Shown in pieces: positions 37,120 through 63,633 of a DNA stretch of 64,000 nucleotides (the stretch's first letter is position 1; each line of letters opens with the position of its first letter). This stretch comes from Thiohalobacter thiocyanaticus. Its GTDB lineage: Bacteria > Pseudomonadota > Gammaproteobacteria > Thiohalobacterales > Thiohalobacteraceae. The stretch is from assembly GCF_002356355.1 (NCBI RefSeq), contig NZ_AP018052.1:1364001-1428000 (forward strand), given 5' to 3'. The position numbers and the translations under genes are program-made. Under the pieces are notes generated by a model that ran no database searches, was not told the DNA's origin, and worked only from the letters and a program-made list of their open reading frames with translations.

Positions 37120-37123
37120 ATTT

Positions 37124-37957: not shown

Positions 37958-37980
37958 TATGTCTCAAAAAACGCCGATTA

Positions 37981-38024
37981 ATAGGATTAAGATGTATTAT
38001 ACAATTCAATAAGTCCTATGTCTA
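37981..38024 (-). promoter_or_regulatory. Promoter and inverted repeat between WYL-cas3 and cas8f
   Basis: On the minus strand TAGACA (38019-38024) and TATAAT (37996-38001) are separated by 17 bases, a near-ideal sigma-70 promoter for WYL-cas3. An imperfect inverted repeat, ATAGGATTAA (37981-37990) with TAAGTCCTAT (38010-38019), brackets it and could bind the WYL protein. Confidence 0.65.
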
Positions 38025-38102
38025 GGCGTAACAAGGTATTTACTTTCTCTCCGATGGGGCGTTATCGTATACATCATCCTGAAGCAGATATGGGTATGTG
38101 GC

Positions 38103-40519: not shown

Positions 40520-40548
40520 TCACTTTAATTTTGTAAGGAGTATGAATC

Positions 40549-42281: not shown

Positions 42282-42283
42282 GT

Positions 42284-43216
42284 ATGGGGAATCAACGTCG
42301 ACCCCAGGCGGTCATGCTGTCCAAACGCGCGAACGTGTTCTATCTGGAGCACGTTCGCGTTCTGCAGAAAGATGACCGCGTCGTCTACATGACCCAGAGC
42401 TCGAACCCGGTCGAGCAGATCGTCAATATCCCGGACAAGAATACGGCGTTTATCCTGCTGGGCAAGGGTAGCTCCATTACGGATGCCGCGGTCCGCATGC
42501 TGGCAGAGTCCAATGTGATTATTGGCTTCACCGGGTCGGGTGGATCGCCCATGCATGGTATTGTAGATCCGGTATTCATCACGCCGCAGGATGAATACCG
42601 GCCCACGGAATATATGCAGAACTGGGTCAGGTTCTGGTTGGATGAAGACGCCAGGCTTTCCGCGGCCAAGGATTTTCTGAGGTACCGCATCGAGCTCAGC
42701 CAGGCGTTTTATCCGAAGATAAGCGAATTCGAACTCCCAGGCGCCTTAACGGATGACTTCAGCTTTGCCATCGACAAGTGCGCTAATGTAACTGAGCTTC
42801 TGACCGCAGAGGCTCGGTATGCAAAGCAGCTGTATGCGTTGCACGCTAACGCATCAGCAATAAAGTTTTCGCGTACCCCAGGTGAAGTGTCGGGTGACGA
42901 GAAAAACCGGAGAGCGAATTCATTTCTCGATCACGGAAATTACATTGCCTACGGGTATGCAGCCGCGGCGCTTCATGTGCTTGGGATAAACTATGCGTTC
43001 CCAGTGCTTCACGGGAAAACGCGCCGGGGCGCATTGGTATTCGATGTCGCCGACCTCGTGAAGGACTGGTTGATTATGCCAGCGGCTTTCGATGCGGCCA
43101 GGCGAAAGGTAAAAGATCAAGCATTCCGGGCCACGGTCATCGAGCGCGCCATACAGTATGAAGTCCTGGATATATTGATACCCTTTCTGAAATCGGTATC
43201 ATCGAAATATATTTGA
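42284..43216 (+). CDS. cas1: Cas1 integrase, type I-F
   Basis: A 310-residue DNA integrase that inserts new spacers at the leader end with the Cas2 domain of Cas2-3. Family marks are LSKRANVFYLEHVRVLQKDDRVVY, LGKGSSITDAAVRMLAESNV and EYRPTEYMQNWVRFW, then the metal ligands Glu in LTAEARYAKQLY, His in VLHGKTRRGALVFD and Asp in FDVADLVKD. It lies last in the cas operon, next to the leader, instead of first beside cas2-3 as in most I-F loci. Confidence 0.94.
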   Translation: MGNQRRPQAVMLSKRANVFYLEHVRVLQKDDRVVYMTQSSNPVEQIVNIPDKNTAFILLGKGSSITDAAVRMLAESNVIIGFTGSGGSPMHGIVDPVFITPQDEYRPTEYMQNWVRFWLDEDARLSAAKDFLRYRIELSQAFYPKISEFELPGALTDDFSFAIDKCANVTELLTAEARYAKQLYALHANASAIKFSRTPGEVSGDEKNRRANSFLDHGNYIAYGYAAAALHVLGINYAFPVLHGKTRRGALVFDVADLVKDWLIMPAAFDAARRKVKDQAFRATVIERAIQYEVLDILIPFLKSVSSKYI

Positions 43217-43313
43217 TATCAGTAAGTTACAGAGTTCACGCTTAACGAATCCTTGCACCGGGTTAATTCATGTAACCCGTTGATGTTATTTAAAAAGTTG
43301 GGAAAATTCTCTT
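43217..43313 (+). promoter_or_regulatory. CRISPR leader with IHF-like site
   Basis: A 97-bp AT-rich stretch between cas1 and the first repeat. It has the inverted repeat CGGGTTA/TAACCCG (43258-43278). TAACCCGTTGATG (43273-43285) matches the reverse IHF consensus YAANNNNTTGATW at all but the last position. IHF bending is known to position Cas1-Cas2-3 at I-F leaders. Confidence 0.65.
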
Positions 43314-46300
43314 GTTCGCCGCCGCGTAGGCGGCTTAGAAATTCCAGGATGATCATTTCATCCACCTTGCTCCGTTCGCCGCCGCGTAGGCGGCTTAGAA
43401 ATTCTCGGGGTTGGGGTATCGGGGCTCATCCCCGTTCGCCGCCGCGTAGGCGGCTTAGAAAAGACGATTGCCGATGCGCTTCTTGAGGTGTTCGTTCGCC
43501 GCCGCGTAGGCGGCTTAGAAATCTGCGCGATCCCCGGCCATGTAGTGCTTCTGGTTCGCCGCCGCGTAGGCGGCTTAGAAATGTTGGCCTCGTTTTGCAG
43601 GTAGCCGGGGATCGTTCGCCGCCGCGTAGGCGGCTTAGAAACGCATGAGCAGCACCAGGCAGTCGATCTGATCGTTCGCCGCCGCGTAGGCGGCTTAGAA
43701 ACCGAGAAGGAGGCCCCATGAAGGTGGCAGAGCGTTCGCCGCCGCGTAGGCGGCTTAGAAATCCATGCGGCTGTTGCACTCCTCCAGGCTGGCGTTCGCC
43801 GCCGCGTAGGCGGCTTAGAAATGCTGGGTATCAGGGTCCGGCAGGGCCATGAAGTTCGCCGCCGCGTAGGCGGCTTAGAAAATTCAGCCTCGCTGATCGC
43901 GTCTCCGTCATATGTTCGCCGCCGCGTAGGCGGCTTAGAAATGAATCCAAGGGTATCTTGGACTGTAATGCGTGTTCGCCGCCGCGTAGGCGGCTTAGAA
44001 ATAGTATTTCTTCCCGCCTCCACGGCGGCCCTTGTTCGCCGCCGCGTAGGCGGCTTAGAAATACGCCGAGTGGGACTTCAGGCTCTCGTTCCCGTTCGCC
44101 GCCGCGTAGGCGGCTTAGAAACAAGGTCGTCTTGACCCCGCCCAGGGCCTCCATGTTCGCCGCCGCGTAGGCGGCTTAGAAAGTCTGCGTTCGAGACCTG
44201 CAGGTCGTCGGTGTGTTCGCCGCCGCGTAGGCGGCTTAGAAACCTGTGAATTTCTTATCGGCTTCAATCAGGCCGTTCGCCGCCGCGTAGGCGGCTTAGA
44301 AATATCTGAGATCCCGGAATCCGCCGGGTCGGTCGTTCGCCGCCGCGTAGGCGGCTTAGAAATCGATACCGGCCGCGCCGCAACCGATGTGCAGGTTCGC
44401 CGCCGCGTAGGCGGCTTAGAAATGGATCGAACGCATCTGGCCGCATGGCTACGCGTTCGCCGCCGCGTAGGCGGCTTAGAAAAGCTCCGCGCCGGAAAGC
44501 TCTGCTACCTTCACGTTCGCCGCCGCGTAGGCGGCTTAGAAAACTGCTGCCACGCCCTGCGTGAGGTGTGGACCGTTCGCCGCCGCGTAGGCGGCTTAGA
44601 AATGCTGCGGTATGCGCTTCACAGGCCGGATGTTGTTCGCCGCCGCGTAGGCGGCTTAGAAAGGTTCGATGACCTCCCTGAGACCCAGCGGACAGTTCGC
44701 CGCCGCGTAGGCGGCTTAGAAATTTCGGGTCCGGTCCAGGGAATGACTCCGTACGTTCGCCGCCGCGTAGGCGGCTTAGAAAGTATGAATCCATCCAAGC
44801 CGATCAGAACCCGTGTTCGCCGCCGCGTAGGCGGCTTAGAAATTGAGCCAGGACACCAGGCCGCCGATGTTGCCGTTCGCCGCCGCGTAGGCGGCTTAGA
44901 AATCGGCAGCCATCCGGCGCAGGGCGTTGGAGAGGTTCGCCGCCGCGTAGGCGGCTTAGAAAGTGATCCGGGTCACGCCGCCGCCCTGGTCCACGTTCGC
45001 CGCCGCGTAGGCGGCTTAGAAAAAAGCCGGCGCGCTCTATACGCCGCTGGATCCGTTCGCCGCCGCGTAGGCGGCTTAGAAATGATGGACCAGATCCGGG
45101 GCCGGTTCGATGACGTTCGCCGCCGCGTAGGCGGCTTAGAAAGACTGCGGGGTCGAATTCAGGAAATTGAAGTCGTTCGCCGCCGCGTAGGCGGCTTAGA
45201 AATGCACAAATTGCCTACAGGGCCAAAGGGTCCGGTTCGCCGCCGCGTAGGCGGCTTAGAAAGTCCGATCGACGAAGTGACGATCGCGGAGATCGTTCGC
45301 CGCCGCGTAGGCGGCTTAGAAAAGCACCCCGGCGACCACCCCGACCAGCAACAGGTTCGCCGCCGCGTAGGCGGCTTAGAAAGGATCCAGCAGCTGCGCG
45401 GTGGATCGAGGGACGTTCGCCGCCGCGTAGGCGGCTTAGAAAGCCAGGATACCGAGTCCTGCGCCGATGATGCCGTTCGCCGCCGCGTAGGCGGCTTAGA
45501 AATGTGCTTATCAGCACCAGCAACACGGTGATGTGTTCGCCGCCGCGTAGGCGGCTTAGAAAATTCGCCCCAGTCCAGCAGCCATGTGTCGATGGTTCGC
45601 CGCCGCGTAGGCGGCTTAGAAAACGTCGAGAATCCGATATAGGCCCCCACGACAGTTCGCCGCCGCGTAGGCGGCTTAGAAAATCGAGGCGCAGGAGGGT
45701 GACGGGGCCATCGCGTTCGCCGCCGCGTAGGCGGCTTAGAAATCCTTCTGTTTGGCCCGCTCAGCCTCCAAGGCGTTCGCCGCCGCGTAGGCGGCTTAGA
45801 AATGATTGAGGACGCGCTACGGCAGACTCATGATGTTCGCCGCCGCGTAGGCGGCTTAGAAATCAAGGACCCGGACGAGGCGAGGGCGCAGATTGTTCGC
45901 CGCCGCGTAGGCGGCTTAGAAATTGTTGAAGGCCTGCAGCTCCGGGATCTCCACGTTCGCCGCCGCGTAGGCGGCTTAGAAAGCGCTCAGGCCTGGCGCT
46001 TAAGCACGGTATCAGTTCGCCGCCGCGTAGGCGGCTTAGAAAACCCCGTGGGGTCTGGCCCTCATCGACGACGTGTTCGCCGCCGCGTAGGCGGCTTAGA
46101 AAACATCGGACGCGGCCAGCAGCCGGTCACGGATGTTCGCCGCCGCGTAGGCGGCTTAGAAAATATCGTCGAGCCAGCGGGGCGTGTTGCGGTCGTTCGC
46201 CGCCGCGTAGGCGGCTTAGAAACGCTTCGGCGGGAGGGAACATGACCCGCTTTAGTTCGCCGCCGCGTAGGCGGCTTAGAAATCCTGCTGCTGCAGGGCC

Positions 46301-49105
46301 AGCTCCAGCGGGTCGTTCGCCGCCGCGTAGGCGGCTTAGAAATACCGAGTGGTGCCACGGGCATGGCTGGTAGGGTTCGCCGCCGCGTAGGCGGCTTAGA
46401 AAGTGTAGGTGGTGCCGCCGATGGTAAATGTGTCGTTCGCCGCCGCGTAGGCGGCTTAGAAAGAGGACCACGGCAGTGCCATCCGTACCGTGGCGTTCGC
46501 CGCCGCGTAGGCGGCTTAGAAACTATCGCCGACTGGGATTCACTCTCGGATGAGGTTCGCCGCCGCGTAGGCGGCTTAGAAAATAGGACCACACCCATGG
46601 CCTGACATCAGAATGTTCGCCGCCGCGTAGGCGGCTTAGAAATGGAGAAGAAGGCCAACCTGATCCAGGAGGTCGTTCGCCGCCGCGTAGGCGGCTTAGA
46701 AATGAAGCAGCTTGATTCGTTCTCTGCCCTGACCGTTCGCCGCCGCGTAGGCGGCTTAGAAATCAATGAGCGCCAGTGTCTCGTAGTTGATCCCGTTCGC
46801 CGCCGCGTAGGCGGCTTAGAAAATCATGTCCCGCTTCATGAACTCGATTTCACCGTTCGCCGCCGCGTAGGCGGCTTAGAAAAGATTGGCGAGTGCGCGG
46901 CCACGCTCTGAGATGTTCGCCGCCGCGTAGGCGGCTTAGAAAACCACAATAAACCACCCACCGCCGAAGCACTCGTTCGCCGCCGCGTAGGCGGCTTAGA
47001 AATACCAGTCAAGCGCACCGGGGGCGGGCGGTCAGTTCGCCGCCGCGTAGGCGGCTTAGAAAACCCGGAAGAAGTCGATCAGCTCGGTCCTGACGTTCGC
47101 CGCCGCGTAGGCGGCTTAGAAAAGCGGGGCCGTCGATGCAAACCGGCTGTCATCGTTCGCCGCCGCGTAGGCGGCTTAGAAACACACCGTGGGCAGATAC
47201 GCTTGTCTGTGATCGTTCGCCGCCGCGTAGGCGGCTTAGAAAGCTTGAGTGTGCCTGCGTCGAACTGGATCGGCGTTCGCCGCCGCGTAGGCGGCTTAGA
47301 AACTACCGGGTAGTGCCCCGGCTCTGGCTGGTAGGCGTTCGCCGCCGCGTAGGCGGCTTAGAAATGCTGGCGGCCCTTGAGGACCAGGACGCGGACGTTC
47401 GCCGCCGCGTAGGCGGTTTAGAAAATTCAGGCGGATATGTGCAACCGGGGCTACTCGTTCGCCGCCGCGTAGGCGGCTTAGAAATATGACAAATACCACC
47501 TGATCGTTCCCCGGGGGTTCGCCGCCGCGTAGGCGGCTTAGAAAGCGCCGGTAAGCATCAGAGCGCCACGCGAGGCGTTCGCCGCCGCGTAGGCGGCTTA
47601 GAAATGAAGTCGCAGCATGAACGGGAGATGGAGTTAGTTCGCCGCCGCGTAGGCGGCTTAGAAATTGTGCGTGGACTTTATTTCAGTACGGAGCGCGTTC
47701 GCCGCCGCGTAGGCGGCTTAGAAACACTCCACCGGGATATTGATAAGCGCATGGGAGTTCGCCGCCGCGTAGGCGGCTTAGAAATGCACCAGTATCTGGA
47801 CCCGCAGCGCGACATCGTTCGCCGCTGCGTAGGCGGCTTAGAAACACCACAGCCCCGGTGAACAGGTAGAACGGCCCGTTCGCCGCCGCGTAGGCGGCTT
47901 AGAAAAATGGTAGGACTCCAGCCGGTCTATCCGGTGCGTTCGCCGCCGCGTAGGCGGCTTAGAAAGCGTACCGAGTGGACTGGCGAAACGGACTATGGTT
48001 CGCCGCCGCGTAGGCGGCTTAGAAAACAGACCCGATACTGCGGGAAGAGACCTGGACGTTCGCCGCCGCGTAGGCGGCTTAGAAATTGCCGACGATGGCA
48101 TGGCAATGGATCAGGGTGTTCGCCGCCGCGTAGGCGGCTTAGAAACGTATCAGTTGAAACCGCCAATGGATGCCGGCGTTTGCCGCCGCGTAGGCGGCTT
48201 AGAAAACATGGAAGAAAGCGATCAGCTCCTCCAGGTCGTTCGCCGCCGCGTAGGCGGCTTAGAAATTCCGGGCGGCGGTCAGGTAGGCGATCTCCATGTT
48301 CGCCGCCGCGTAGGCGGCTTAGAAATGACCCCCTCGACAGATGGGGCCAGCGATAACGTTCGCCGCCGCGTAGGCGGCTTAGAAAAAAATCCCCGATGGA
48401 CATGGACTGGGGCTGGAGTTCGCCGCCGCGTAGGCGGCTTAGAAATGCAGGCCCTGCCCAACGCCACAGAAGAAGAAGTTCGCCGCCGCGTAGGCGGCTT
48501 AGAAATGTCACTACCTTGTGCAGTCGAGTAATCAGCTGTTCGCCGCCGCGTAGGCGGCTTAGAAAGCTGAGGCGGGAGGGAACTGAATGACCCGCTTGTT
48601 CGCCGCCGCGTAGGCGGCTTAGAAAGTGGTCGCCCTTCTCGCTGGTGATCGCCTCATGTTCGCCGCCGCGTAGGCGGCTTAGAAACGGTCAATTTCGGGG
48701 TAACGGGCGAAGTTTGTGTTCGCCGCCGCGTAGGCGGCTTAGAAAAATAGGATCAGGCTCCAGATAAATCGTCCGTAGTTCGCCGCCGCGTAGGCGGCAT
48801 AGAAATCGCCCGAGAATGAGCGGAAGCCTGCTATGGGGTTCACCGCCGCGTAGGCGGCTTAGAAAGATATAGATAACGGTGAAGCCGGCATTGGTGAGTT
48901 CGCCGCCGCGTAGGTGGCTTAGAAAATCCCCGACCAGGCGGTCTTCGGGACGGTCCAGTTCGCCGCCGCGTAGGCGGCTTAGGAATACCCGCGTACCGAC
49001 TGCCGCTACCTCAAGCAGTTCGCCACCGCGTAGGCGGCTTAAAAATTGAAGGTGCCGTTGGTGTGGTCCACGGTGGCGTTCGCCGCCGCACAGGTGGCTT
49101 AGAAA
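43314..49105 (+). CRISPR. Type I-F CRISPR array, 97 repeats and 96 spacers
   Basis: The 28-bp repeat starts GTTCGCCGCCGCGTAGGCGG and ends CTTAGAAA, with stem GCCGCC/GGCGGC and loop GCGTA. Repeats recur every 60 bases. Three intervals are longer (two of 61, one of 62), giving 32-base spacers with two of 33 and one of 34. Counted from 43314 to 49078 this gives 97 repeats. Early repeats are identical. Variants appear only towards the right (near 47416, 47826, 48181, 48799) and cluster in the last five (48838-49105), so the left end beside cas1 is the active leader end. Long frames across the array are artefacts of the 60-base period. Confidence 0.98.
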
Positions 49106-49504
49106 CGCGTGACACCGGGCTTTCGGAGCTGCGGGAGGTGGGCCGCCACTGCGTGCCCGGCTTTTACGCTCGAGGAGCTGGGTGAGTGGAGGCTGGACCG
49201 GGATCGGGAACCAGTACTTCCATTCACCGGCCTGGATGGCCTCCAGCGAGGCACAAGTACCCCAGGGGAAATCCTTCCGGTTCGCCTTCGCGTCGTCCCC
49301 AACTGACCATCCGGAATCCGCATGAACGGGTGCGCACCGGCAGACAGATGCCGGGCACAGAGAAATGGACTCGGATGTCTCGGCCGAGATAGGGGTATTT
49401 CACAGCGACAATCACCGTAAAAATATACAGTATGTAGTACTGGGATATCTGGCAGAATTTCTGTATATTTCCGGTTGTTTTCTTCGGATCAGGAGGACCC
49501 AGCC
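49106..49504. other. Flank of the array, no convincing gene
   Basis: GC-rich up to about 49320, then AT-rich. A frame containing QYFHSPAWMASSEAQVPQG looks coding-like but has no start and is probably debris. The AT-rich end should contain the promoter of the next gene. Confidence 0.5.
49438..49457. promoter_or_regulatory. Weak LexA-like box before the YedK gene
   Basis: TACTGGGATATCTGGCAGAA keeps the CTG-N10-CAG frame of the SOS box, but the inner T and A of CTGT/ACAG are changed. It lies about 48 bases before the SOS-associated protease-like gene, which is why it was noted. Confidence 0.3.
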
Positions 49505-50179
49505 ATGTGTGGCCGCTTCTCCAGGACCAGTCCCCCCGAGACCTTTGCCAGCTTGGTGGAGGGTCGAAATGATATCGATGACTTACCGCCGCAGTACAAC
49601 ACCCTGCCCGGCCAAAAAGCACTCGTCTGTCGGATTGATCCCGCAGGCGAGCGGGAGATGGCCCTGCTGCGCTGGCCCTACATCCCGCCGTTCGAGAAGC
49701 AGCCCAAGACCCGCTACTCCACCATCAATGCCAAGGCCGAAACCCTGACGACCAGCCGCCTCTGGCGGTTCCCCTTCCAGCATTTCCGCTGTCTCATCGC
49801 TGCTGATGGCTTCTATGAGCCGAAGGACACCGGTGAGAAGCGCAAGCCGCAGTATTACTTCCGACGCAGGGACGGCGAACCCTTCTTCATGGCCGGACTC
49901 TGGGGGCGTTGGGAGCCGCCTGGAGGGGAGGGCGGTGAGGCGTTTGATTCCTGCGCGATCATCACGACCGAGGCCAATGCAGTCGTTGGCGAGGTTCATC
50001 CGCGGATGCCGGTGATTCTCCAGCCCGATGCCTGGGCGCAGTGGCTGGATCCAGCGGTCACGGACCCTGAGCAAGTACAGGACCTGTTGGAGCCAGCGCC
50101 GGACGAAGGATGGGAAGGGTATCCGGTGGGCTATTACACCCGCGAGGACAGTCCGCAGGTGATCGAACGCCAAAACTGA
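49505..50179 (+). CDS. yedK: YedK/HMCES-type abasic-site protein (SRAP family)
   Basis: A 224-residue SRAP-domain protein. The N-terminal MCGRFSR supplies Cys2, which crosslinks to abasic sites in single-stranded DNA. Other family blocks are PQYNTLPGQ, YSTINAKAETL (with the active-site Asn and Glu), RCLIAADGFYEP and VHPRMPVIL (with the catalytic His). The protein shields abasic sites during replication. AGGAGG stands before the start. Placement between a CRISPR array and a nuclease gene is compatible with a role in damage caused by defence nucleases, but the gene is also common elsewhere. Confidence 0.92.
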   Translation: MCGRFSRTSPPETFASLVEGRNDIDDLPPQYNTLPGQKALVCRIDPAGEREMALLRWPYIPPFEKQPKTRYSTINAKAETLTTSRLWRFPFQHFRCLIAADGFYEPKDTGEKRKPQYYFRRRDGEPFFMAGLWGRWEPPGGEGGEAFDSCAIITTEANAVVGEVHPRMPVILQPDAWAQWLDPAVTDPEQVQDLLEPAPDEGWEGYPVGYYTREDSPQVIERQN

Positions 50180-51995: not shown

Positions 51996-52985
51996 TCAAT
52001 GGGTGGTCTCTGTGAGGCGAAGGGAGACAATAGTGATATTGTCAATGAGGTCAGGAAGGCCGGCCATTGTATCTCCGATATCCTTAACGGTTTTTCCTGC
52101 CTGAATGTCTTGCCCGATTGTGCGATACGCCGCGTACCGGTTGTCCTTCGTTCCATTGGTATGAACGCCGTCGGTTACACCTAGAATCAGACTATCAGGC
52201 GGTACAGTAAAGTCCTTAATCTCGGGGCTTCGGATCATCAAACCATTGAAGCAGCTATCCCCGATGGCTCGGGTGACGGCGATTCCGAGCGTGTCCTCAT
52301 CAGTGGGGCCAACCATAAGATACTGATCGCCCAGACTGGCGGCCCTATGCCAGAAGGGTGGGTTGTCCCGCGCCTGTGTTGCCTGGAGCGCTTGCGTGAT
52401 GGTGGTTCGATCCTTCTGGCATGTCATTACGGACTGGGCCGTCGTGGCATGCAGTATGCCCTCAGGGGTCTGAACCAGGATTGCTGAATCCCCCAGCTGA
52501 GCTGTGAATACCTTAAGATTATCGCCGGCGGAAATGATGTAAGCTATCGACAAGGTGGTACCTACATGCTTGTAGTGGGCGCAATCGGTCACCAACAGCG
52601 CAATGGTGGCGCGTAGAGCTTCATGGACCCTGGCAGCATAATCATCCGGTGCGATGGCATTACGGTGATTCCGGCCATGGTCGTTCTGTGCCGGGTCAGT
52701 GGTAACCTGTACTCCTGCGATATTATTTATCAGATGTTGCTCTGAGGGTGCTTGACCCTCCTGCTCGGATACGACCTTTTCCGGAAGTTTCTGTTGCAGC
52801 CCGAATCTGAAGTAATGGGTCAAACGGCTTGCGGCCAGATCGGCTACGTCCGCACCCCCATGGCCGTCGAGTACCGCCAGAAGATAACCGTCCGCAACCG
52901 GCTGCGCGACCCAGCGATCTTCCTGGTAGGCGCGCTGGTTAATTGACTGAAAAACATCCAGTGACAGTCGGTCTATAAAACCCAT
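51996..52985 (-). CDS. PP2C-type protein phosphatase
   Basis: A 329-residue metal-dependent Ser/Thr phosphatase. Motifs in order: NQRAYQEDRW (the ED metal ligand), AVLDGHGGADVADLAA, HVGTTLSIAYI, VFTAQLGDSAIL, VTRAIGD, ILGVTDGVHTNG and DNITIVSL, so all key aspartates are present. The ATG at 52985 gives the proper N-terminus (MGFIDRLSLDVFQSINQRA). It lies 4 bases after the 97-residue gene in a leftward operon that starts near the palindrome at 53613. No kinase is seen within the window, so its substrate is open. A partner protein in the same gene cluster is one possibility. Confidence 0.92.
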   Translation of the reverse strand: MGFIDRLSLDVFQSINQRAYQEDRWVAQPVADGYLLAVLDGHGGADVADLAASRLTHYFRFGLQQKLPEKVVSEQEGQAPSEQHLINNIAGVQVTTDPAQNDHGRNHRNAIAPDDYAARVHEALRATIALLVTDCAHYKHVGTTLSIAYIISAGDNLKVFTAQLGDSAILVQTPEGILHATTAQSVMTCQKDRTTITQALQATQARDNPPFWHRAASLGDQYLMVGPTDEDTLGIAVTRAIGDSCFNGLMIRSPEIKDFTVPPDSLILGVTDGVHTNGTKDNRYAAYRTIGQDIQAGKTVKDIGDTMAGLPDLIDNITIVSLRLTETTH

Positions 52986-52989
52986 GCCT

Positions 52990-53283
52990 TTATACCCCCT
53001 CAACCGCCAAAACGTAATCCTCAAACCACTGATCCATGCAGCTGTATACGGCCATCCAGGCCCTGCATGGCATCGGATAATCCAGTCCATCAATTTTGAT
53101 CACAAGCCTTCCGCAGTGATGGTCGTAATATGCAATTGCGGTTTGACGATACAGTTCAAGTGCCGTGTGGCGATCCTTTAACCTGACGATTCGACAGAGA
53201 TTTACCTCCTCACACTGGACGACAAGCATCAGGTTGTCCCAGCAATTGACACCGGGAGCCATTTTCAGAATTGCCTTAGCCAT
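52990..53283 (-). CDS. Hypothetical cysteine-containing protein
   Basis: A 97-residue protein with six cysteines (NCWDN, VQCEEVNLCR, HHCGRL, MPCRAW, SCMDQW), mixed alpha-beta, no membrane segment. I recognise no family. It is cotranscribed with the PP2C gene (4-base gap) and the small membrane protein upstream. It could be a regulatory partner or target of the phosphatase. Confidence 0.55.
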   Translation of the reverse strand: MAKAILKMAPGVNCWDNLMLVVQCEEVNLCRIVRLKDRHTALELYRQTAIAYYDHHCGRLVIKIDGLDYPMPCRAWMAVYSCMDQWFEDYVLAVEGV

Positions 53284-53605: not shown

Positions 53606-53645
53606 ATCATACGCCTACCTGCGACAGTTTCTGTCGCAGGTAGGC
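53606..53645. promoter_or_regulatory. Operator-promoter 1 of the TGCGACA regulon
   Basis: A perfect 14-bp inverted repeat: GCCTACCTGCGACA (53613-53626), five bases, then TGTCGCAGGTAGGC (53632-53645). On the minus strand TGTCGCAG is followed after 7 bases by the -10 element TATGAT (53606-53611). On the plus strand TACCAT lies 8 bases after it. It can serve both the PP2C operon and the small rightward transcript. Confidence 0.8.
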
Positions 53646-53684
53646 GATACCATGGCACCTCATTCAATCGCATGGGGGGTATGA

Positions 53685-53879
53685 ATGGGTAAATCGATGA
53701 GTGTCTGGATTCCGAGTCGTGTCTGTTTCTGTTCTGATATCGGATGTCGATATCGACCGAGCGGGGCGTTGTGTCCTTCGCGACAGCATGCGGGTAAGCG
53801 CAAGGGGGTACAATTGTTTCACTCGGTCGACCGGGGTTCTCCTCAGGCGCATCAATATCTGAATCGGATGATCGGTTGA
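53685..53879 (+). CDS. Possible 64-residue protein or small RNA
   Basis: A short frame (MGKSMSVWIPSRVCFCSDIG at the start) with a GGGGGG ribosome-like sequence 7 bases before the ATG. It is enclosed by operator 1 on the left and a strong terminator on the right, so a discrete transcript of about 260 bases is expected. The amino-acid composition (Arg, Ser, Cys) is unusual, so the product may instead be an untranslated RNA. Confidence 0.4.
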   Translation: MGKSMSVWIPSRVCFCSDIGCRYRPSGALCPSRQHAGKRKGVQLFHSVDRGSPQAHQYLNRMIG

Positions 53880-53886
53880 GAATGGA

Positions 53887-53914
53887 GGGGGGACTCGGAT
53901 GTCCCCCCTTTCTT
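53887..53914 (+). terminator. Rho-independent terminator of the small transcript
   Basis: GGGGGGAC and GTCCCCCC form an 8-bp stem with a 6-base loop, followed by TTTCTT. It begins 7 bases after the stop of the 64-codon frame and lies between it and the convergent AAA ATPase gene. Confidence 0.85.
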
Positions 53915-53926
53915 CTGTCTTACCGG

Positions 53927-56053
53927 TCAGTTCCGGACAAATCCAATGGGGCGATTGGATCGCGGCCGCTTTGCTGCCATCTCCTTCTCCAGCCCGTCCA
54001 CCAGCGCCTGACGTGTCGTTGCCTTGCCCCGAAGCCTGAGTTGACGCACGACAGTCATGAAATCCCCCGGCGTCACGGCCGACAGCCGGGCAATACGTCG
54101 CTGTAGGACGTCATCATCGGGCGCGGCTTCAGCTATCTCCTCAGCAAGGTGCTCCAGCAACCGCCGGACCTGGTCAGGGACGAGGTAGTCGAAGCGGATT
54201 TTCAGATCGAAGCGGCGCAGGGCCGCTGTATCCAGTCCCTCCATCATGTTGGTAGTGGCGATCAGAATTCCCTCGAATGCCTCCATCTGGGTCAGGAATT
54301 CATTGACCTGGTTGATCTCCCAGGATTTTCCATCCAGCTGGCGCTGGTGCAGCAGACTGTCGATTTCGTCGATCATCAGCACGGCTGACTGGCGGCGCGC
54401 CTCGGTGAAGGCGCTGGCAATGGCTTTTTCCGTCTGCCCGACGTAGGGCCCGAGCAGATCTGACAGGCGCTTGTGGATACAGGGCCGGTCCACCACCTCT
54501 GCCAGATAGTCACCAAAGGCGGTTTTTCCTGTCCCCGGCGGGCCGTACAGGCATAATCGACCCTGTCCCGCCTGGCGCATCCCCTGTGCGAGTGACTCCA
54601 GATCTTCATCAGGATTAAGGTAGTCAAGGGAATAGGTCATGGGGCCTGCTGGTTGGGACGCTGGGCTGGAATAGCGACTGCCCATGGCTTCCAGGGTATT
54701 GCCGAAGATCCGATCCAGCGCCTGTTCGACGACTTCGGACGGCTCACCCGTCAGATGGTCGATCACCCGGGCGGCACGTTCGACATGTGCCGGCGTCAGA
54801 GCCTCGGTGGCCGCGGCGCGGTCCAGCCAGTGGCCGCGCACCGGGTAGGGGGCCAGATACTGTTTCAGCGCCTGTGCGCGGACGGATTGAGGGGGTTCCC
54901 CGAGTTCCAATACATAGTCGAAGCGCCGCAGATACGCGGGATCAATCTGGTCGATATGGTTGCTCAGCCAGAAGGTGGGAACAGGGTTGGACTCGAGCAG
55001 GTCATTGACCCAGGCTTTGCCCGGGGTCTCTTCGCCCATCAGGTTCAAGAGGTTGAAGCCTTGCGGTGGGAAGACATCCTCGATTTCATCGAACAGAACC
55101 AGGCCCGTATCCTGATTGGCAAGCAGATTTTGTGTCAGCTGGTAGGCAGAAAAACGCGCGATCCCCGGCAGTGACTTGCCTCCCCGGTCGGCAATCGCGA
55201 CCTCATAGAGGCGGGCCCCAAGAGACTCGGCCATGACCCGAGCCAGCTGTGTCTTGCCGGTACCCGGTGGGCCATGGATCAGAACGTTAACTCCGGTCAG
55301 ACCCTGTGCCAGTGCCCGTGTCAGAAAACCGTGTATCAGGGTAATGTCCTGTGACACATGGGGGTAATCCTCCCGCGTCAGTGTGGGCGGGGTCGATTCC
55401 TGGAAAAAATGCCGGAACAGCAGGGCGGGGGAGCTGTGTTCATGCAGCAGCGCCTCACTCAGTCGCCCCAGCAGTTGCAGCTTCCGGTACAGGGGCCGCT
55501 GCTCCCCGCTGGGCACCCGCATGAGGCCGGCAGCAATCAACGTCGCATCAGGGCGCAAGCTGTCTGTAATAGCCTTGAGCGGAAGTTCCAGGATCGTGGC
55601 CAATGCCCGCTCGGCACGGCTCTGATCCAGATCCCCGAGGCTGTCCAGGGTCTCAGAGAGTGCCCTGACGTTCCGGGTCAGGACCAGAAACCCCAGGATC
55701 TTCTGCTCCGTGTCGGTGAGCTTCAGGCGCTGAGCAAGCCAGTGGATATTGCGGTCGAGAGTGCCTTCGACTTCAGGCGACAGGGTATTGATCTGGCGCT
55801 GTCGTTCTGTGAATGCCTCCCGAATCTGGGGCTGTTTCACGTCGCGGTCGTTCAGGTGGTCGAGTTCGAGTGTATGGAAGATGATATCGCTGTCGATGCC
55901 GAGTCCGCAGAGTGTGCCGAACGCATGATAGCCCCGTAGATCCACCAGGATACGCAGCATCCAGCGTTGGATCGGGACGCGGTATTCTTCCAGGAGGGTT
56001 TTGAAGGAGTGTGACTCGGTAGGCGTGTTATCTGAAAGATCGACTTTGTGCAT
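53927..56053 (-). CDS. Tandem AAA ATPase
   Basis: A 708-residue protein. An N-terminal helical domain (about 1-230) is followed by two AAA modules. Module 1 has Walker A HGPPGTGKT (about 261-268), Walker B LVLFDEIED and the sensor segment FWLSNHIDQIDPAYLRRFD. Module 2 has YGPPGTGKT (about 503-510), VLMIDEIDSLL, LIATTNMMEGLD and AALRRFDLKIRFD, the arginine-finger region. Both sites look active. Such proteins form rings that remodel or unfold partners. GGGGAG precedes the ATG at 56053. A -10 CATAAT and the shared palindrome lie upstream. No protease domain is fused, so a partner is expected. Confidence 0.88.
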   Translation of the reverse strand: MHKVDLSDNTPTESHSFKTLLEEYRVPIQRWMLRILVDLRGYHAFGTLCGLGIDSDIIFHTLELDHLNDRDVKQPQIREAFTERQRQINTLSPEVEGTLDRNIHWLAQRLKLTDTEQKILGFLVLTRNVRALSETLDSLGDLDQSRAERALATILELPLKAITDSLRPDATLIAAGLMRVPSGEQRPLYRKLQLLGRLSEALLHEHSSPALLFRHFFQESTPPTLTREDYPHVSQDITLIHGFLTRALAQGLTGVNVLIHGPPGTGKTQLARVMAESLGARLYEVAIADRGGKSLPGIARFSAYQLTQNLLANQDTGLVLFDEIEDVFPPQGFNLLNLMGEETPGKAWVNDLLESNPVPTFWLSNHIDQIDPAYLRRFDYVLELGEPPQSVRAQALKQYLAPYPVRGHWLDRAAATEALTPAHVERAARVIDHLTGEPSEVVEQALDRIFGNTLEAMGSRYSSPASQPAGPMTYSLDYLNPDEDLESLAQGMRQAGQGRLCLYGPPGTGKTAFGDYLAEVVDRPCIHKRLSDLLGPYVGQTEKAIASAFTEARRQSAVLMIDEIDSLLHQRQLDGKSWEINQVNEFLTQMEAFEGILIATTNMMEGLDTAALRRFDLKIRFDYLVPDQVRRLLEHLAEEIAEAAPDDDVLQRRIARLSAVTPGDFMTVVRQLRLRGKATTRQALVDGLEKEMAAKRPRSNRPIGFVRN

Positions 56054-56102
56054 ATTTCTCCCCATCGCCACATGTCAGATATAGGCTGATTTCAAGGAGA
56101 GT

Positions 56103-56139
56103 ATTATGCGGATAGCTGCGACACATTCTGTCGTTACAG
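56103..56139 (-). promoter_or_regulatory. Operator-promoter 2 of the TGCGACA regulon
   Basis: CTGCGACA (56116-56123), five bases, TGTCGTTACAG (56129-56139). On the minus strand TGTCGCAG is separated by 7 bases from CATAAT (56103-56108), the same geometry as at operator 1. It would control the AAA ATPase gene, whose start is 50 bases downstream. Confidence 0.78.
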
Positions 56140-56157
56140 GGGTGGGTAGAGTGAATT

Positions 56158-56517
56158 TTATATCGGCGTATCCTGATGAGGAATACAGTCGCTGGATTCG
56201 AGGATTTGCCGCCACTGGGAGCGCGATAGCCCACAGACCTGGCTCAGCAGTTCATTGACACCGATTTGTGCCGGTTGCCAGCATTCGGACCTCCGCGCTT
56301 CGAGTTGACTGCCATGCAGCCGGTAGACCGCTCCACCAGGAAGTCGGACGGCCTGACCGCGTTGCAACAGGTTGAACAAAATCACCATCCCGGGTTGAAC
56401 GGTGGCACTGTCCAATGAAGCATTATCGGCGTTGTTGGATTCGCAGTCTGGCGTGCGCGTGTGGGAAGGCTGCCGGCGGGATTCCCTGGCGTTGTTGAGA
56501 TCAATAATTTCTCCCAT
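56158..56517 (-). CDS. Hypothetical protein of the TGCGACA cluster
   Basis: A 119-residue soluble protein. It starts MGEIIDLNNARESRR, has a polar low-complexity part, then a beta segment (VRLPGGAVYRLHGSQLEAR) and a helical end (LLSQVCGLSRSQWRQILES). GAGGAAAC precedes the ATG at 56517; the longer GTG start at 56583 would overlap the previous gene. I recognise no family. It is the last gene of the leftward set that begins near 58.0 kb. Confidence 0.5.
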   Translation of the reverse strand: MGEIIDLNNARESRRQPSHTRTPDCESNNADNASLDSATVQPGMVILFNLLQRGQAVRLPGGAVYRLHGSQLEARRSECWQPAQIGVNELLSQVCGLSRSQWRQILESSDCIPHQDTPI

Positions 56518-56560
56518 GGCGATGTTTCCTCGTGATTCTGGTTCGGCAGCAAGGTAGGCG

Positions 56561-57484
56561 TCAGATGAAATCGAGAACTTCACCTAGGTTGGTCTCGATG
56601 TAGACTTCCTTATCCGTTGAATTCAGCACATCCGCGGTGCCGGCCCCCAGGGAGTTGATACCGTAGAGATGAACAAAGGGATTGGCGCCATTTGCAATTG
56701 CCTCGGCGAGATCTCGCTCGAGTGTGGTGCCATTCAGGGATAACTCCAGACCGGCGCTAGAGGCCGTGAGTATCTTTACTGCATCCGCGGCGATAGTGGG
56801 GCATTGGAGTCGGAGCGTGCCATGAAAACCGGCCAGTTGGGCGGCTGATTCGGCATCCACATGCGTGCAGGCAAGAGTGAGATGTTCGGCATAGATGCTG
56901 GACAGTGCTGAGGCAATGCTGGGACTGAGCGCGCTGTCCTCGAGGTATAACTGAAACTCATCCCACGCTCTGCTTTTGGCGAGTGCTTGCACTGTCTCAG
57001 GGGAAATCTCCGGGATGCTGACCAATATAAGAGCTGGGCTGGCCCTGGATATAAGATCGGCCACCTCAGGAGACATAGACCTTGGATACAGGAGTAGCTG
57101 GGTGCCATTGAAAGATTGCAAAATGTGGGCATCCTGGACATCCAGCGCATCAATCCCATCCAGACTGACGCTATCAGCGAATCGCGCAAGGTTCAGAACC
57201 GTAGTCTTGTCCAGATGGCCATTGTGTTGGCCAGCGGCCACCCAGTGTAGTTTGAGCTTGCCGTTGCCACCAAGTGCGATCAGTGACTCAGCCGAACAGT
57301 GATCGAGTAGTGGAAGATGGCCGTCTATAAATATCGAATTACCCTTGAACGCCTCGAGGGCGCGTGCCGCATTGCAGTCCAGACGACCAAGCACGAGACG
57401 CAAATCATCTCCGCACTCGATTAATTCTTCCGCCTTGGTTACAGAGAGTTCCTCGTCCTGATAATTGGTTTCGCGTACAGGCAT
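56561..57484 (-). CDS. Leucine-rich-repeat-like protein
   Basis: A 307-residue protein built of degenerate repeats of about 20-25 residues with the pattern AxxLxxFxGxLxLxxxxL, for example ALEAFKGNSIFIDGHLPLL, HILQSFNGTQLLLYPRSM and AAQLAGFHGTLRLQCPTI. The layout suggests a solenoid that binds a protein or other ligand. There is no signal peptide. In a defence-type gene set a solenoid could sense a phage component, but this is inference. It lies between the 129-residue and 119-residue genes on the same strand. Confidence 0.6.
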   Translation of the reverse strand: MPVRETNYQDEELSVTKAEELIECGDDLRLVLGRLDCNAARALEAFKGNSIFIDGHLPLLDHCSAESLIALGGNGKLKLHWVAAGQHNGHLDKTTVLNLARFADSVSLDGIDALDVQDAHILQSFNGTQLLLYPRSMSPEVADLISRASPALILVSIPEISPETVQALAKSRAWDEFQLYLEDSALSPSIASALSSIYAEHLTLACTHVDAESAAQLAGFHGTLRLQCPTIAADAVKILTASSAGLELSLNGTTLERDLAEAIANGANPFVHLYGINSLGAGTADVLNSTDKEVYIETNLGEVLDFI

Positions 57485-57608
57485 AGTGATCCTATCATGG
57501 TGTCTGAATTGAAGACCCTGATGCGCAGGGAGTGTGCACTGGTCTACGTGACTATCAATGACAACCGCTTACAGGGGGAGAGGAAGCCCCCCCTCCCCGG
57601 TGAGTATG

Positions 57609-57998
57609 TCAGCGATTCTGGACGTGTCTATCGATATTGATCCCGGGTAGACTTTTCACGTCGATATTCTTCGGGGCCCCGGGTGTCATGAACGATATCA
57701 GTGACTGTTCGATTTCGTCCCTTTCACCGCCACGGCATGTGAAACCCAGGTTGTTTTTGTCCGTGGGAGCAACCACAAGGTAAAGCACACCCTCCAGAGG
57801 TTCAAAATCCTTCCCAACCTTGACTGAGGGTGATCTTGAGTGATTACAGATCACCTTAATTGATTTGTTGTGATCCGGAAGGTGGATATCGATATTCGGA
57901 TCCTTGTCCACCACTGTGTGGTTAATCTCCCGTTGACCCAGATACCCGCTGATCATCTTCACGCCCATTTCGTGCTTCTGTCGAGTCGTCAGTTTCAT
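57609..57998 (-). CDS. Hypothetical protein divergent from the WYL regulator
   Basis: A 129-residue soluble protein that starts MKLTTRQKHEMGVKMISGYL and has DPNIDIHLPDHNKSIKVICN. The latter is vaguely like a PD-(D/E)XK strand pair but lacks the Glu, so catalysis is not predicted. I recognise no family. The ATG at 57998 is preceded by GGTGGGG. Operator 3 lies 45-70 bases upstream. It is probably the first gene of the leftward set 57998-56158. Confidence 0.5.
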   Translation of the reverse strand: MKLTTRQKHEMGVKMISGYLGQREINHTVVDKDPNIDIHLPDHNKSIKVICNHSRSPSVKVGKDFEPLEGVLYLVVAPTDKNNLGFTCRGGERDEIEQSLISFMTPGAPKNIDVKSLPGINIDRHVQNR

Positions 57999-58028
57999 AC
58001 CCCACCTGTCTCCCGTGAACGTGTCGAG

Positions 58029-58076
58029 ACTGTATCGTTCAGTTGCGACAAAAACTGTCGCTACAACCAGAAAAAT
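58029..58076. promoter_or_regulatory. Operator-promoter 3 of the TGCGACA regulon (bidirectional)
   Basis: GTTGCGACA (58042-58050), five A/C bases, TGTCGCTACAAC (58056-58067). Leftward, TACAGT lies 8 bases past TGTCGCAA. Rightward, AAAAAT (58071-58076) lies 7 bases past TGTCGCTA. It sits between the 129-residue gene and the WYL regulator and so is the best candidate for autoregulation. Confidence 0.75.
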
Positions 58077-59240: not shown

Positions 59241-61187
59241 ATGAGTACGACATTGACAAAAAGCCGGTTCAAGATCGCACTGGAATGCCCCAGAAAGCTA
59301 AACTATGCCACTGATAAGAATTACGCTAACGCAAAAAGCGAGGATGAATTCCTTCAGGGACTAGCCGAAGGGGGCCATCAGGTGGGTGCGCTTGCCAAGC
59401 TGATGTATCCAGGTGGTATTGAAATTACCACCCCCTCTGTCGAGGAACAAATAAAAAATACCCAGAAACTGATCGAACAAAATGACGTCATCCTTTACGA
59501 GCCGACGTTCCGCCATGGGAATCTCGTCATCCGCGTCGATATACTGGTTAAGCGTGGCAACCTGATCGACCTGATCGAAGTGAAGGCGAAAGGTTTTAAT
59601 TCCAGGGAAAGTAGCTTCCGCGGTAAAAATAATCCGATAAAGAGTGAGTGGCGCCCATACTTGTACGACGTAGCCTACCAGCTCCTGGTTCTGGAGCGGG
59701 CGCACCCGGAATGGACAGTGACGCCTCATCTCATGCTTCTGGATACATCGGTGAAATCGAGCATTGATGGCCTGGGCTCTTCCCTAACCGTAACACGGGA
59801 TAGAGGCCGGCTGAACGTGAGTATAAGGGATGGGTTTGATATTTCTATGCAGCAGCCGTCTCTTCTTCGTCAGCACGATGTGACTGACGAAGTTGGAATT
59901 CTGCGATCCAACCCAGTCGAGACGCCCGCCGGTGAGATGGACTTCGTAAACTTGGTGGACTGGCTTGGCGATAAGCTCGAAGCTGGTGAAACATTCCCTC
60001 CCTATATTGGAAAGCAATGTAAAAGTTGTGAATTCTACTGTGAGCCAGAGCAAATAACCCTTGACAATATCAGTGGCTGGGCTGCCTGCATGGAGGAAGC
60101 CTACACTCCACTCAAGGCGACATGGTCAAGAAGTGACTCCGTATTCGGGCTGTATCAATTTCGCAAGGTCGATGATCTGATTGCCAATAATATATTGTTA
60201 ATGAAGGATGTTGATGAGACGCAACTGACCATCAAGGAGAAACCTGGAGAAATCTCTACGAGTGACCGGCATCTCCTGCAGATCATGGAGGCGAGGGGCG
60301 AAGGCGATCAAATTCACCTTGAAATGGATACCCTTAGACAAGTGTTTGGTGACTGGGAGTATCCATTGCACTTCATCGATTTCGAGACATCCCGTCCAGC
60401 GCTTCCATTTCATTCCGGCTGTCGACCCAACGACATGATTCTTTTTCAGTTTTCGCATCATCAGCTTGATGCAGATGGCCAGCTTCGCCATGCTAATGAG
60501 TGTCTGATTGCGACGCCTGGAACCTGGCCGAATAGCTCTGTCGTACGTGCATTACGTGATGCAGTGGGGAACTCTGGCACTGTAGTTCATTGGTGGGACC
60601 ATGAAAGAACCGTTCTGAAGGAAGTGAAACAACAATGCATAGATCGTAACGAGCCCGATAAGGACATTCTGTGTGAATTTATCGACTCCCTTGTGAACAG
60701 TGAATCAGGCCGCCTGGCAGATCTCGGACGGCTTGTTTCCAGAACGGTATTCATAAAGGGTACGAACGGCCGAAGCTCGATTAAGAAGGTTCTCCCTGCC
60801 ATCCTGGCAATGTCTGACTCGCTAGAGGAACACTATGGGCAACCGATTTACGGCACCGAGGCAATGCCCAGCTTGAATTACTCACCCGGCTGGACCTGGC
60901 TCAGGGAAGAGAGTGGGGAAATTATCGATCCCTACCGCTTGCTCGATCCTATCTTCCTGGATGATGAGGTTGCACGAGCAATAGATCAGGCCGAAGACGA
61001 ATATACAGGCTATGATAAATTCGTGGCCAATGGTGGCGCCGCCATTATTGCCTACGCCCAGCTACAGAACCCTGATCTCAACCAAGATGAACGGCAGCGG
61101 ATTGAGGCTCAGCTTAAGCGCTATTGTGAGCTTGATACTTTGGCAATGGTAATGATTTACGAGGCAATATCGAAATGGATAAAATGA
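59241..61187 (+). CDS. DUF2779 protein with Cas4-like nuclease domain
   Basis: A 648-residue protein. The N-terminal part has a PD-(D/E)XK core (VIRVDILVKRGNLIDLIEVKAK) and a later Cys group (QCKSCEFYC) resembling Cas4/AddB iron-sulfur sites. The C-terminal part has LHFIDFETSRPALPFHSGCRPND and RYCELDTLAMVMIYEAI, the DUF2779 pattern with DEDD-exonuclease-like acidic residues. It is therefore a candidate two-nuclease protein acting on DNA or RNA. AGGAATA stands before the start. It is cotranscribed with the following gene, which overlaps its end. Confidence 0.78.
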   Translation: MSTTLTKSRFKIALECPRKLNYATDKNYANAKSEDEFLQGLAEGGHQVGALAKLMYPGGIEITTPSVEEQIKNTQKLIEQNDVILYEPTFRHGNLVIRVDILVKRGNLIDLIEVKAKGFNSRESSFRGKNNPIKSEWRPYLYDVAYQLLVLERAHPEWTVTPHLMLLDTSVKSSIDGLGSSLTVTRDRGRLNVSIRDGFDISMQQPSLLRQHDVTDEVGILRSNPVETPAGEMDFVNLVDWLGDKLEAGETFPPYIGKQCKSCEFYCEPEQITLDNISGWAACMEEAYTPLKATWSRSDSVFGLYQFRKVDDLIANNILLMKDVDETQLTIKEKPGEISTSDRHLLQIMEARGEGDQIHLEMDTLRQVFGDWEYPLHFIDFETSRPALPFHSGCRPNDMILFQFSHHQLDADGQLRHANECLIATPGTWPNSSVVRALRDAVGNSGTVVHWWDHERTVLKEVKQQCIDRNEPDKDILCEFIDSLVNSESGRLADLGRLVSRTVFIKGTNGRSSIKKVLPAILAMSDSLEEHYGQPIYGTEAMPSLNYSPGWTWLREESGEIIDPYRLLDPIFLDDEVARAIDQAEDEYTGYDKFVANGGAAIIAYAQLQNPDLNQDERQRIEAQLKRYCELDTLAMVMIYEAISKWIK

Positions 61188-62115: not shown

Positions 62116-63633
62116 ATGGAAAGAGTCCTTGTTAGCTGGATAGGTCAGCATGATTTGGATGCTGTCACTGGTAACTCCCCGGGGCCTGTCATGGCCGCAA
62201 TTAGGGATGCCGAGCAGTCGGGTAATTCATATAATCATATCCATCTGATATATAACTATAAAACAAGCCAGGCTCTCCCGTATTTAGATTGGCTTTCGGC
62301 TGGAGTAGACAGCGCCACGAGTATATCGAGTCGACGTTTCCGGCTTACCTCCCCAACGTCATATGCCGAAATTTATCCTGCTGTTTCCAGTGAGCTTGCA
62401 AAACTGGAGCAGAAATACCCTCTGGCACAACGCGTAGTGCATCTGAGTCCTGGTACGCCTGCGATGGCAGCTGTATGGATCCTATTGGTAAAGACACGAT
62501 TTCCAGCGATTTGCATACAGTCCTGGCAAAATTCCGAGGGAAAGCAGGTCGTACAGGAGGTTGAGCTTCCGTTCGAGATAGAGGCGCGATTCAGCCTTGA
62601 GGCGACTCGTCGATCTGATAAACGGCTCAACCGGCTTCTTGATAGCGAAGAGGCTGCAGACAAGGCGTTCGCGAGGATTACCAGTGCAGGAGAGCTGCAT
62701 GGTGCAATTGAAAAATCCCGTAAAATCGCGGTACGCGATGTACCGATATTGCTATTGGGCGAGACCGGCACTGGTAAAGAGCTTTTTGCTCGAGCTATTC
62801 ACGATGCAAGTTTTCGGCGGGAGGGGCCGTTTGTTGCTGTGAATTGTGGTGCGCTCCCGCATGACCTTACTGAATCGCTGCTGTTCGGCCACAAGAAAGG
62901 ATCCTTTACCGGCGCAATGCAAGATCATGATGGATTCTTCGCTCAAGCCGATGGTGGAACACTGTTTCTGGATGAGGTTGGAGAGTTACCCATCAAAGTG
63001 CAGGTGAAACTGTTGCGAGCCCTGCAGGAACACACGTTCATACCAGTGGGCGCCTCCGAGCCGAGACATAGTGACTTTCGTATTGTTGCCGCTACGCACA
63101 GGGAATTGGCTGAACAGGTTGGGGAGGGTAGCTTCAGGGAGGATTTGTTTTATCGCCTGGCTGTCGGTGTGATCAAACTCCCTGCGCTTCGTGACCGTCC
63201 GGAGGATTTTCCAGCCCTGATCGAGACACTGATGGAGTCCATTAATTCTGAGCTTTCCGACCAGCCTGGGTATAGGCGTAAGAAAATTGATGATGATGTA
63301 ATAAACGTTATCATGGCGCATGATTGGCCGGGAAATATCCGGGAACTCAGGGCGACTCTGCTCAGGGCCGCCGTCTGGAATGACAGTGCCACTCTTACCT
63401 GTCATGAAGTCGAGGATGCGTTGCTGGTATTGCCCAGCCAATCCAATCGCGCTACGCTGGGTGGAATAAGTCAACCTATTGATTTAGAGAAATTAATGGC
63501 GGATGTGGCGCGGCATTATATTCCCTTGGCCCTGGCCAGGGCTGATGGCAACAAGACCCGGGCCGCCAAGCTGCTCGGTCTCCGTAGCCAGCCGGTGCTG
63601 ACGAATAAGATGAAGAAATACGGAATCGACTGA
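62116..63633 (+). CDS. CARF-like sigma-54 activator (RtcR-like)
   Basis: A 505-residue regulator. Residues 1-160 form a Rossmann-type domain (VLVSWIGQHDLDAVTG, HIHLIYNYKT, VVHLSPGTPAMAAVWILL) like the CARF domains that bind cyclic or linear oligonucleotides and like RtcR. The sigma-54 AAA domain has GETGTGKE (215-222), GSFTGA (262-267, the sigma-54 contact loop, normally GAFTGA), GTLFLDEVGE and FREDLFYRL. The C-terminus is a Fis-type helix-turn-helix (KTRAAKLLGLRSQPVLTNKM). It should activate a -24/-12 promoter after sensing a nucleotide signal. One lies 5 bases after its stop. Confidence 0.88.
   Translation: MERVLVSWIGQHDLDAVTGNSPGPVMAAIRDAEQSGNSYNHIHLIYNYKTSQALPYLDWLSAGVDSATSISSRRFRLTSPTSYAEIYPAVSSELAKLEQKYPLAQRVVHLSPGTPAMAAVWILLVKTRFPAICIQSWQNSEGKQVVQEVELPFEIEARFSLEATRRSDKRLNRLLDSEEAADKAFARITSAGELHGAIEKSRKIAVRDVPILLLGETGTGKELFARAIHDASFRREGPFVAVNCGALPHDLTESLLFGHKKGSFTGAMQDHDGFFAQADGGTLFLDEVGELPIKVQVKLLRALQEHTFIPVGASEPRHSDFRIVAATHRELAEQVGEGSFREDLFYRLAVGVIKLPALRDRPEDFPALIETLMESINSELSDQPGYRRKKIDDDVINVIMAHDWPGNIRELRATLLRAAVWNDSATLTCHEVEDALLVLPSQSNRATLGGISQPIDLEKLMADVARHYIPLALARADGNKTRAAKLLGLRSQPVLTNKMKKYGID

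Follow-up and report, generated by a model that had tools for sequence, protein, structure and literature searches.

The WYL-domain protein encoded in the cassette described here is likely to be a homodimeric activator of the DriD type, with three palindromic boxes in the promoter regions of the cassette as its predicted operators and single-stranded DNA (ssDNA) as its probable trigger; the genes concerned appear to form an AAA/PP2C cassette that is mobile and lies within a defence island. This reading draws on features taken from the sequence of the window (the whole 64,000-nucleotide stretch of DNA analysed) and of other genomes, i.e., the sites themselves, their confinement to one cluster, their conservation together with particular genes, the geometry of the −10 hexamers next to them, and the relation of the WYL protein to DriD. 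A regulon in which the boxes would tie the cassette to the WYL regulator is well supported by these features, and the WYL protein appears to be by far the best candidate for binding the boxes. A regulon of this kind had been proposed in the preliminary description, which had also placed the WYL gene under the control of its own product; the confinement of the sites, the conserved palindrome, and the WYL protein as the best candidate were upheld, while control of the WYL gene itself became doubtful. By analogy with DriD, DNA damage or attack probably turns the cassette on; self-control of WYL and repression are less likely.

Three palindromic boxes in a PP2C-AAA-WYL cassette

We identified three boxes of the TGCGACA-N5-TGTCGCA type in the window (Table 1), confirming with small coordinate corrections three palindromes recognised earlier. 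The core of box 1 is part of a longer perfect palindrome whose 16-bp arms flank a TTT centre; the arms reported before were of 14 bp (53613-53645). At 0-1 mismatches to the box pattern, a scan of the window detected only these three sites; at 3 mismatches, the number of matches was at chance level (13 vs 10.3 expected). Across the 3.23-Mb genome, the GCGACA-N5-TGTCG core occurs in three copies, all in this cluster and none elsewhere. A backward control pattern presented 3 genome matches, and 1-2 chance matches of the box core would be unsurprising; three boxes inside 4.5 kb vastly exceed chance, and a chance origin was rejected on the basis of the genome-wide scan and permuted palindromes. Neither the two congeneric genomes scanned nor the seven from the same family, all of which are without the cassette, contain GCGACA-N5-TGTCGC. 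None of the three box sequences fits the LexA/SOS operator (CTGT-N8-ACAG).

Table 1. Boxes, promoter elements, cassette genes, and neighbouring loci in the window.
Feature	Position	Strand	Remarks
Box 1	palindrome 53612-53646, core 53620-53638		core TGCGACAGTTTCTGTCGCA; between leftward PP2C operon and rightward small ORF
Box 2	56117-56135		TGCGACACATTCTGTCGTT; upstream of AAA; perfect over CGACA-N5-TGTCG
Box 3	58044-58062		TGCGACAAAAACTGTCGCT; between 129-aa gene and WYL gene; perfect over GCGACA-N5-TGTCGC
-10-like TATGAT	53606-53611	-	8 bases past box 1; towards PP2C operon
-10-like TACCAT	53648-53653	+	9 bases past box 1; weak; putative
-10 CATAAT	56103-56108	-	8 bases past box 2; towards AAA; position common to divergent AAA promoters
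-10-like TACAGT	58029-58034	-	9 bases past box 3; towards 129-aa gene
-10-like AAAAAT	58071-58076	+	8 bases past box 3; towards WYL
PP2C-type phosphatase	51996-52985	-	PF13672, E 1e-9
97-aa conserved protein	52990-53283	-	no family
Small ORF, 58 aa	53342-53518	-	likely membrane protein; first gene of PP2C operon
Small ORF, 64 aa	53685-53879	+	Cys-rich; GGGGGG Shine-Dalgarno-like stretch upstream, terminator downstream
Terminator-like hairpin	53884-53911	+	3' of 64-aa small ORF
Tandem AAA ATPase, 708 aa	53927-56053	-	PF00004, E 4.8e-42, two stretches
141-aa conserved protein	56158-56583	-	no family
307-aa repeat-like protein	56561-57484	-	no family
129-aa protein	57609-57998	-	no family; divergent from WYL
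WYL regulator, 338 aa	58103-59119	+	wHTH-WYL-WCX, DriD-like
Type I-F CRISPR-Cas locus	33943-49200		left of cassette; Cas2-3, Cas8f-, Cas5f-, Cas7f-like
Gene adjoining Cas2-3	37124-37957		weak WYL-like match (PADLOC E 2e-4)
SRAP (YedK/HMCES) protein	49475-50179		
DUF4268 protein	50736-51941		matches PADLOC candidate PDC-S11
DUF2779 gene	59241-61187		directly after WYL; absent from L006
RtcR-like CARF-sigma54 activator	62116-63633		few genes past cassette; PADLOC RtcR_PspF2, E 5e-186

The window between about 52,150 and 59,042 is 92.5% identical to a contig (L006) of a Porticoccaceae metagenome-assembled genome (MAG) and the flanks differ, which marks this block as mobile or recombined; L006 retains each of the three boxes, its WYL cassette being 86% identical. 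Compared with L006, the 58-aa ORF presented seven synonymous and four non-synonymous codon differences, and the 64-aa ORF five synonymous and two non-synonymous ones, with 6/7 changes at third positions. A small transcript had been postulated as a target; it is probably a small mRNA, since a conserved 64-codon ORF and a terminator are found to the right of box 1. The AAA gene starts with an ATG at 56053 with GGGGAGA just upstream, and the structure model of the 129-aa protein was unusable (pLDDT 44). No plasmid relatives were found for the PP2C or for the 129-aa protein, and a pattern scan of viral contigs yielded no relatives of the AAA.

With a type I-F CRISPR-Cas locus and array on its left and the RtcR-like activator on its right, the cassette sits, as judged from gene content, in a defence-island setting, and a defence role of the AAA/PP2C cassette is putative, based on this genomic setting. 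Cas8f and Cas5f of the CRISPR-Cas locus are divergent, and its array contains at least 57 repeats with a period of 60 (repeat GTTCGCCGCCGCGTAGGCGGCTTAGAAA). SRAP genes are also found near WYL on plasmids of Methylomonas (L054) and Marinobacter (L058), a proximity that would fit a theme of single-stranded-DNA damage. Other DUF2779 genes are located between AAA and WYL in two further loci (L055 and L056); our literature search found no paper on DUF2779 and WYL together.

Relation of the WYL protein to DriD and promoter geometry at the boxes

The WYL protein has the wHTH + WYL + WCX architecture of the ~330-aa class, with Pfam matches to WYL and WCX and an AlphaFold model (pLDDT 85) that includes an N-terminal wHTH. 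All five phmmer hits among PDB sequences were DriD entries; in a family profile search, DriD (E 1e-21 to 1e-22) was followed by PafBC (1e-11 to 1e-20) and CapW/BrxR (~1e-3). The model aligned with full-length DriD over residues 1-338 (267 aligned, Z 12.2-12.6, ~21-22% identity) and with CapW/BrxR over residues 1-250 only (Z 11.9); DriD thus presented the highest structural Z, although its full-length Z is within 1 of that for CapW/BrxR. On these comparisons, DriD is the nearest characterised relative of the WYL protein. The DNA-binding domain showed no sequence match to that of DriD, and an N-terminal query matched essentially only arginine repressors. An invariant R47 and an almost invariant R43 are candidate residues for contacting guanines. 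R223 is kept in all members of this family; the middle Arg of the DriD R-S-W-R-L-D-R stretch corresponds to A220 here and is not Arg in this family, so that the ligand pocket differs from that of DriD.

The published DriD consensus is ATACGAC(X)7GTCGTAT, with the core CGAC-N7-GTCG, and the target used in fluorescence polarisation was ATACGACAGTAACTGTCGTAT (PMC12340889); a published driD promoter oligo includes TGCGACAGAAACGGTCGTA. Boxes 1-3 all agree with the target consensus CGAC-N7-GTCG, and box 1 read leftward on the minus strand (TGCGACAGAAACTGTCGCA) shares 17/19 positions with the published driD site, spacer included.

The −10 hexamer of divergent AAA promoters is found 8 or 9 bases past the right arm of the box, as CATAAT in the window and as TATAAT, CATAAT, CATAGT, and others in relatives; for 12 AAA promoters, the mean best match to a −10 at N8-N9 was 4.08/6, a value reached by 0/2000 shuffles. 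Because the −10 hexamer sits 8-9 bases past the right arm, the box centre would fall near −30/−31, relative to predicted transcription starts, and would occupy the place of the −35 element. None of the three boxes presented a promoter with a −35 in a sigma-70 scan, in agreement with the poor −35 elements noticed in the preliminary description; the identical spacing it had seen at the two leftward copies also held (TGTCGCA-N8-TATGAT at site 1 and TGTCGCA-N8-CATAAT at site 2), and its gap of 7-8 bases to the −10 had to be corrected to 9-10 bases when counted from the TGTCGC hexamer. In cryo-EM, the site occupied by DriD overlaps a poor −35, and a fixed distance to the −10 is reported (PMC12340889); our alignment of published oligos (A-11/G-14) gave a box-to-−10 distance of 9 bases for published DriD promoters. 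As judged from sequence, the boxes of the window likewise overlap the −35 region at a fixed −10 distance, as for DriD-type activators.

From these features we infer binding, activation, the ligand, and the action of the cassette once induced. A WYL dimer would bind CGACA-N5-TGTCG centred near −30/−31, replacing the −35 element, and would aid RNA polymerase at promoters with a fair −10 and no −35. Through box 2, it would act on the leftward AAA gene; through box 1, on the leftward operon for the small membrane protein, the 97-aa protein, and the PP2C as well as on the rightward 64-aa small ORF; and through box 3, most likely on the leftward operon divergent from WYL. DNA damage, or phage and plasmid DNA during invasion or processing, would supply ssDNA, presumably held in the WYL pocket as in DriD, and the cassette would then be induced. 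Self-activation of the WYL gene is doubtful for three reasons: DriD activates the divergent operon but leaves its own gene uncontrolled (PMC12340889), the better −10 at box 3 (TACAGT) faces the 129-aa gene, and a start set by the WYL-ward AAAAAT would fall at or past GGAGGG, the sole Shine-Dalgarno-like stretch.

The chief rival to DriD-type activation is that the WYL protein binds the boxes as a BrxR/CapW-type repressor of the cassette and of itself, and is released by a nucleic-acid ligand. BrxR and CapW, both known from defence islands, are WYL repressors that bind palindromes in promoter regions, their structural Z is near that for DriD, 5-bp spacers occur in R-BOX1 of BrxR as well as in the BrxR site of Acinetobacter, and the cassette adjoins a CRISPR-Cas locus. 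We nevertheless consider repression unlikely, as both the half-site and the spacing of the boxes equal the DriD consensus and the profile matches to DriD and PafBC are far above those to CapW/BrxR. The sites of CapW extend over the −10 and R-BOX1 is found downstream of its promoter, whereas the boxes replace the −35; since the Acinetobacter BrxR site overlaps the −35, however, box position excludes only part of the BrxR/CapW group. Activation, which had been named earlier as an alternative, is favoured over repression by the box position, the missing −35, and the DriD match.

Conservation of the box with WYL and AAA genes

Among 369 Gammaproteobacteria, the genome of the window included, WYL homologues (26-38% identity) were detected in 27 and AAA homologues in 21; both were present in 12 genomes (Fisher p 3e-10 for co-occurrence across the 369 genomes), and AAA and WYL adjoin on several plasmids. 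Upstream footprinting covered the 200 bp before divergent AAA and WYL genes, which are only 26-46% identical. Boxes matching at 12/14 positions or more were identified in 12/29 AAA upstream regions (mean of 0.02 for permuted palindromes) and in 7/35 WYL upstream regions (0.04 for permuted palindromes), and were absent at this threshold from the 200 bp in the other 17 and 28 regions, respectively. The exact 19-bp palindrome occurred in 12/369 genomes, i.e., in 7/27 with WYL vs 5/342 others (Fisher p 3e-6); in 20 WYL/AAA genomes, 20/22 exact palindromes were no more than ~15 kb away from a homologue of WYL or AAA, but the genomes in this 20-vs-20 comparison were partly picked for boxes, and the unbiased 369-genome scan is the reliable one for association. 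These data support the palindrome as a conserved putative operator of the WYL/AAA family across divergent bacteria.

Genes that start elsewhere within 250 bp of a box, on either side, include those for AAA, WYL, a PD-(D/E)XK nuclease (PADLOC PDC-S26), a RecC homologue, a NERD-UvrD helicase, Sir2, an ADP-ribosylglycohydrolase, metallophosphoesterases, and an FtsZ-like protein; they were assigned from simple ORF calls, and some boxes may be chance occurrences. As a set, these genes would look like a DNA-damage or defence regulon. All five exact palindromes of one genome (G288) fall within one 45-kb stretch, and a RecC homologue (L088 15417-19031) starts 51 bases past a box in the same genome. 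In L056 (4450-5695), an FtsZ-like gene is divergent from AAA with two intergenic boxes, the first of which overlaps the called start; an FtsZ-like gene behind boxes brings to mind the control of a division inhibitor by DriD.

The boxes might instead be bound by another, chromosomally encoded regulator, with the WYL protein acting elsewhere, as could be suggested by the five genomes that contain the exact palindrome and in which no WYL homologue was detected at E 1e-25. This is very improbable, given that relatives in the same genus and family without the cassette also lack the box, and that the box travels with the cassette (as in L006), clusters with WYL/AAA genes, and fits the DriD consensus rather than the LexA pattern. 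That the palindromes represent transcript hairpins or terminators rather than operators is hardly credible: box 1, with its 16-bp perfect arms, could fold, but boxes 2 and 3 have perfect arms of only 5 and 6 bp around a 5-base centre with no T-run after them, and homologues keep both the sequence and the symmetry at a fixed −10 distance.

Implications and comparison with known systems

A broader idea, which we put forward tentatively and with more doubt than confidence, is that CGACA-N5-TGTCG and a DriD-like WYL protein constitute a second, SOS-independent damage code of mobile defence islands in many Gammaproteobacteria. If so, ssDNA from damage or from invaders would switch on the nuclease, RecC-like, AAA, Sir2, and FtsZ-like genes behind the box, and defence would be induced rather than constantly on. 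The defence-island WYL regulators studied so far (BrxR and CapW) are repressors, while DriD has been studied as a DNA-damage regulator of Caulobacter; a DriD-type box before mobile AAA, nuclease, and RecC-like genes would join defence islands to DNA-damage regulation and leads to the prediction that ssDNA activates some of these islands. The 19-bp motif allows targets to be listed in any genome. No description of a DriD-type box before mobile defence genes was found in the literature searched, which lacked the two principal papers on DriD (Genes Dev 2022, NAR 2024).

Among characterised systems, the IetA/IteA anti-phage ATPase is related to the AAA of the window in that the second AAA domain scores against IetA; the window protein differs in reaching 126 bits against a family cut-off of 510 bits and in being a tandem AAA, and a subtilisin-like partner, as in IetA/IteA, was not noticed in the cassette. 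PafBC of mycobacteria (PMC11804915) shares the WYL-WCX fold and is an ssDNA-activated activator at imperfect promoters; unlike the model proposed for the WYL protein, it is a heterodimer, one subunit of which contacts promoter DNA near −24 without such a palindrome. BrxR of BREX and CapW of CBASS are, like the WYL protein, defence-island WYL regulators associated with inverted repeats (PMC9122601, PMC9122589, PMC9122588), and BrxR shares the 5-bp spacer; they differ from it in being shorter (~290-300 aa in PDB), in their weaker sequence match, and in being repressors. The boxes end 8-9 bases upstream of the −10, which CapW sites overlap, and the E. fergusonii BrxR operator is located downstream of its promoter.

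DriD of Caulobacter crescentus (PMC12340889; PDB 8TP8, 8TPK, 9PFV), an ssDNA-activated WYL activator, resembles the WYL protein in its wHTH-WYL-WCX architecture of ~330 aa, in its CGAC-N7-GTCG target, and in having a site that separates the gene of the regulator from an operon divergent to it. The WYL protein differs from DriD in its ~21-22% identity and one replaced pocket arginine, and in being carried by a mobile AAA/PP2C cassette adjoining CRISPR-Cas, whereas DriD targets didA, bapE, recJ, dnaG, and a TonB-transporter operon.
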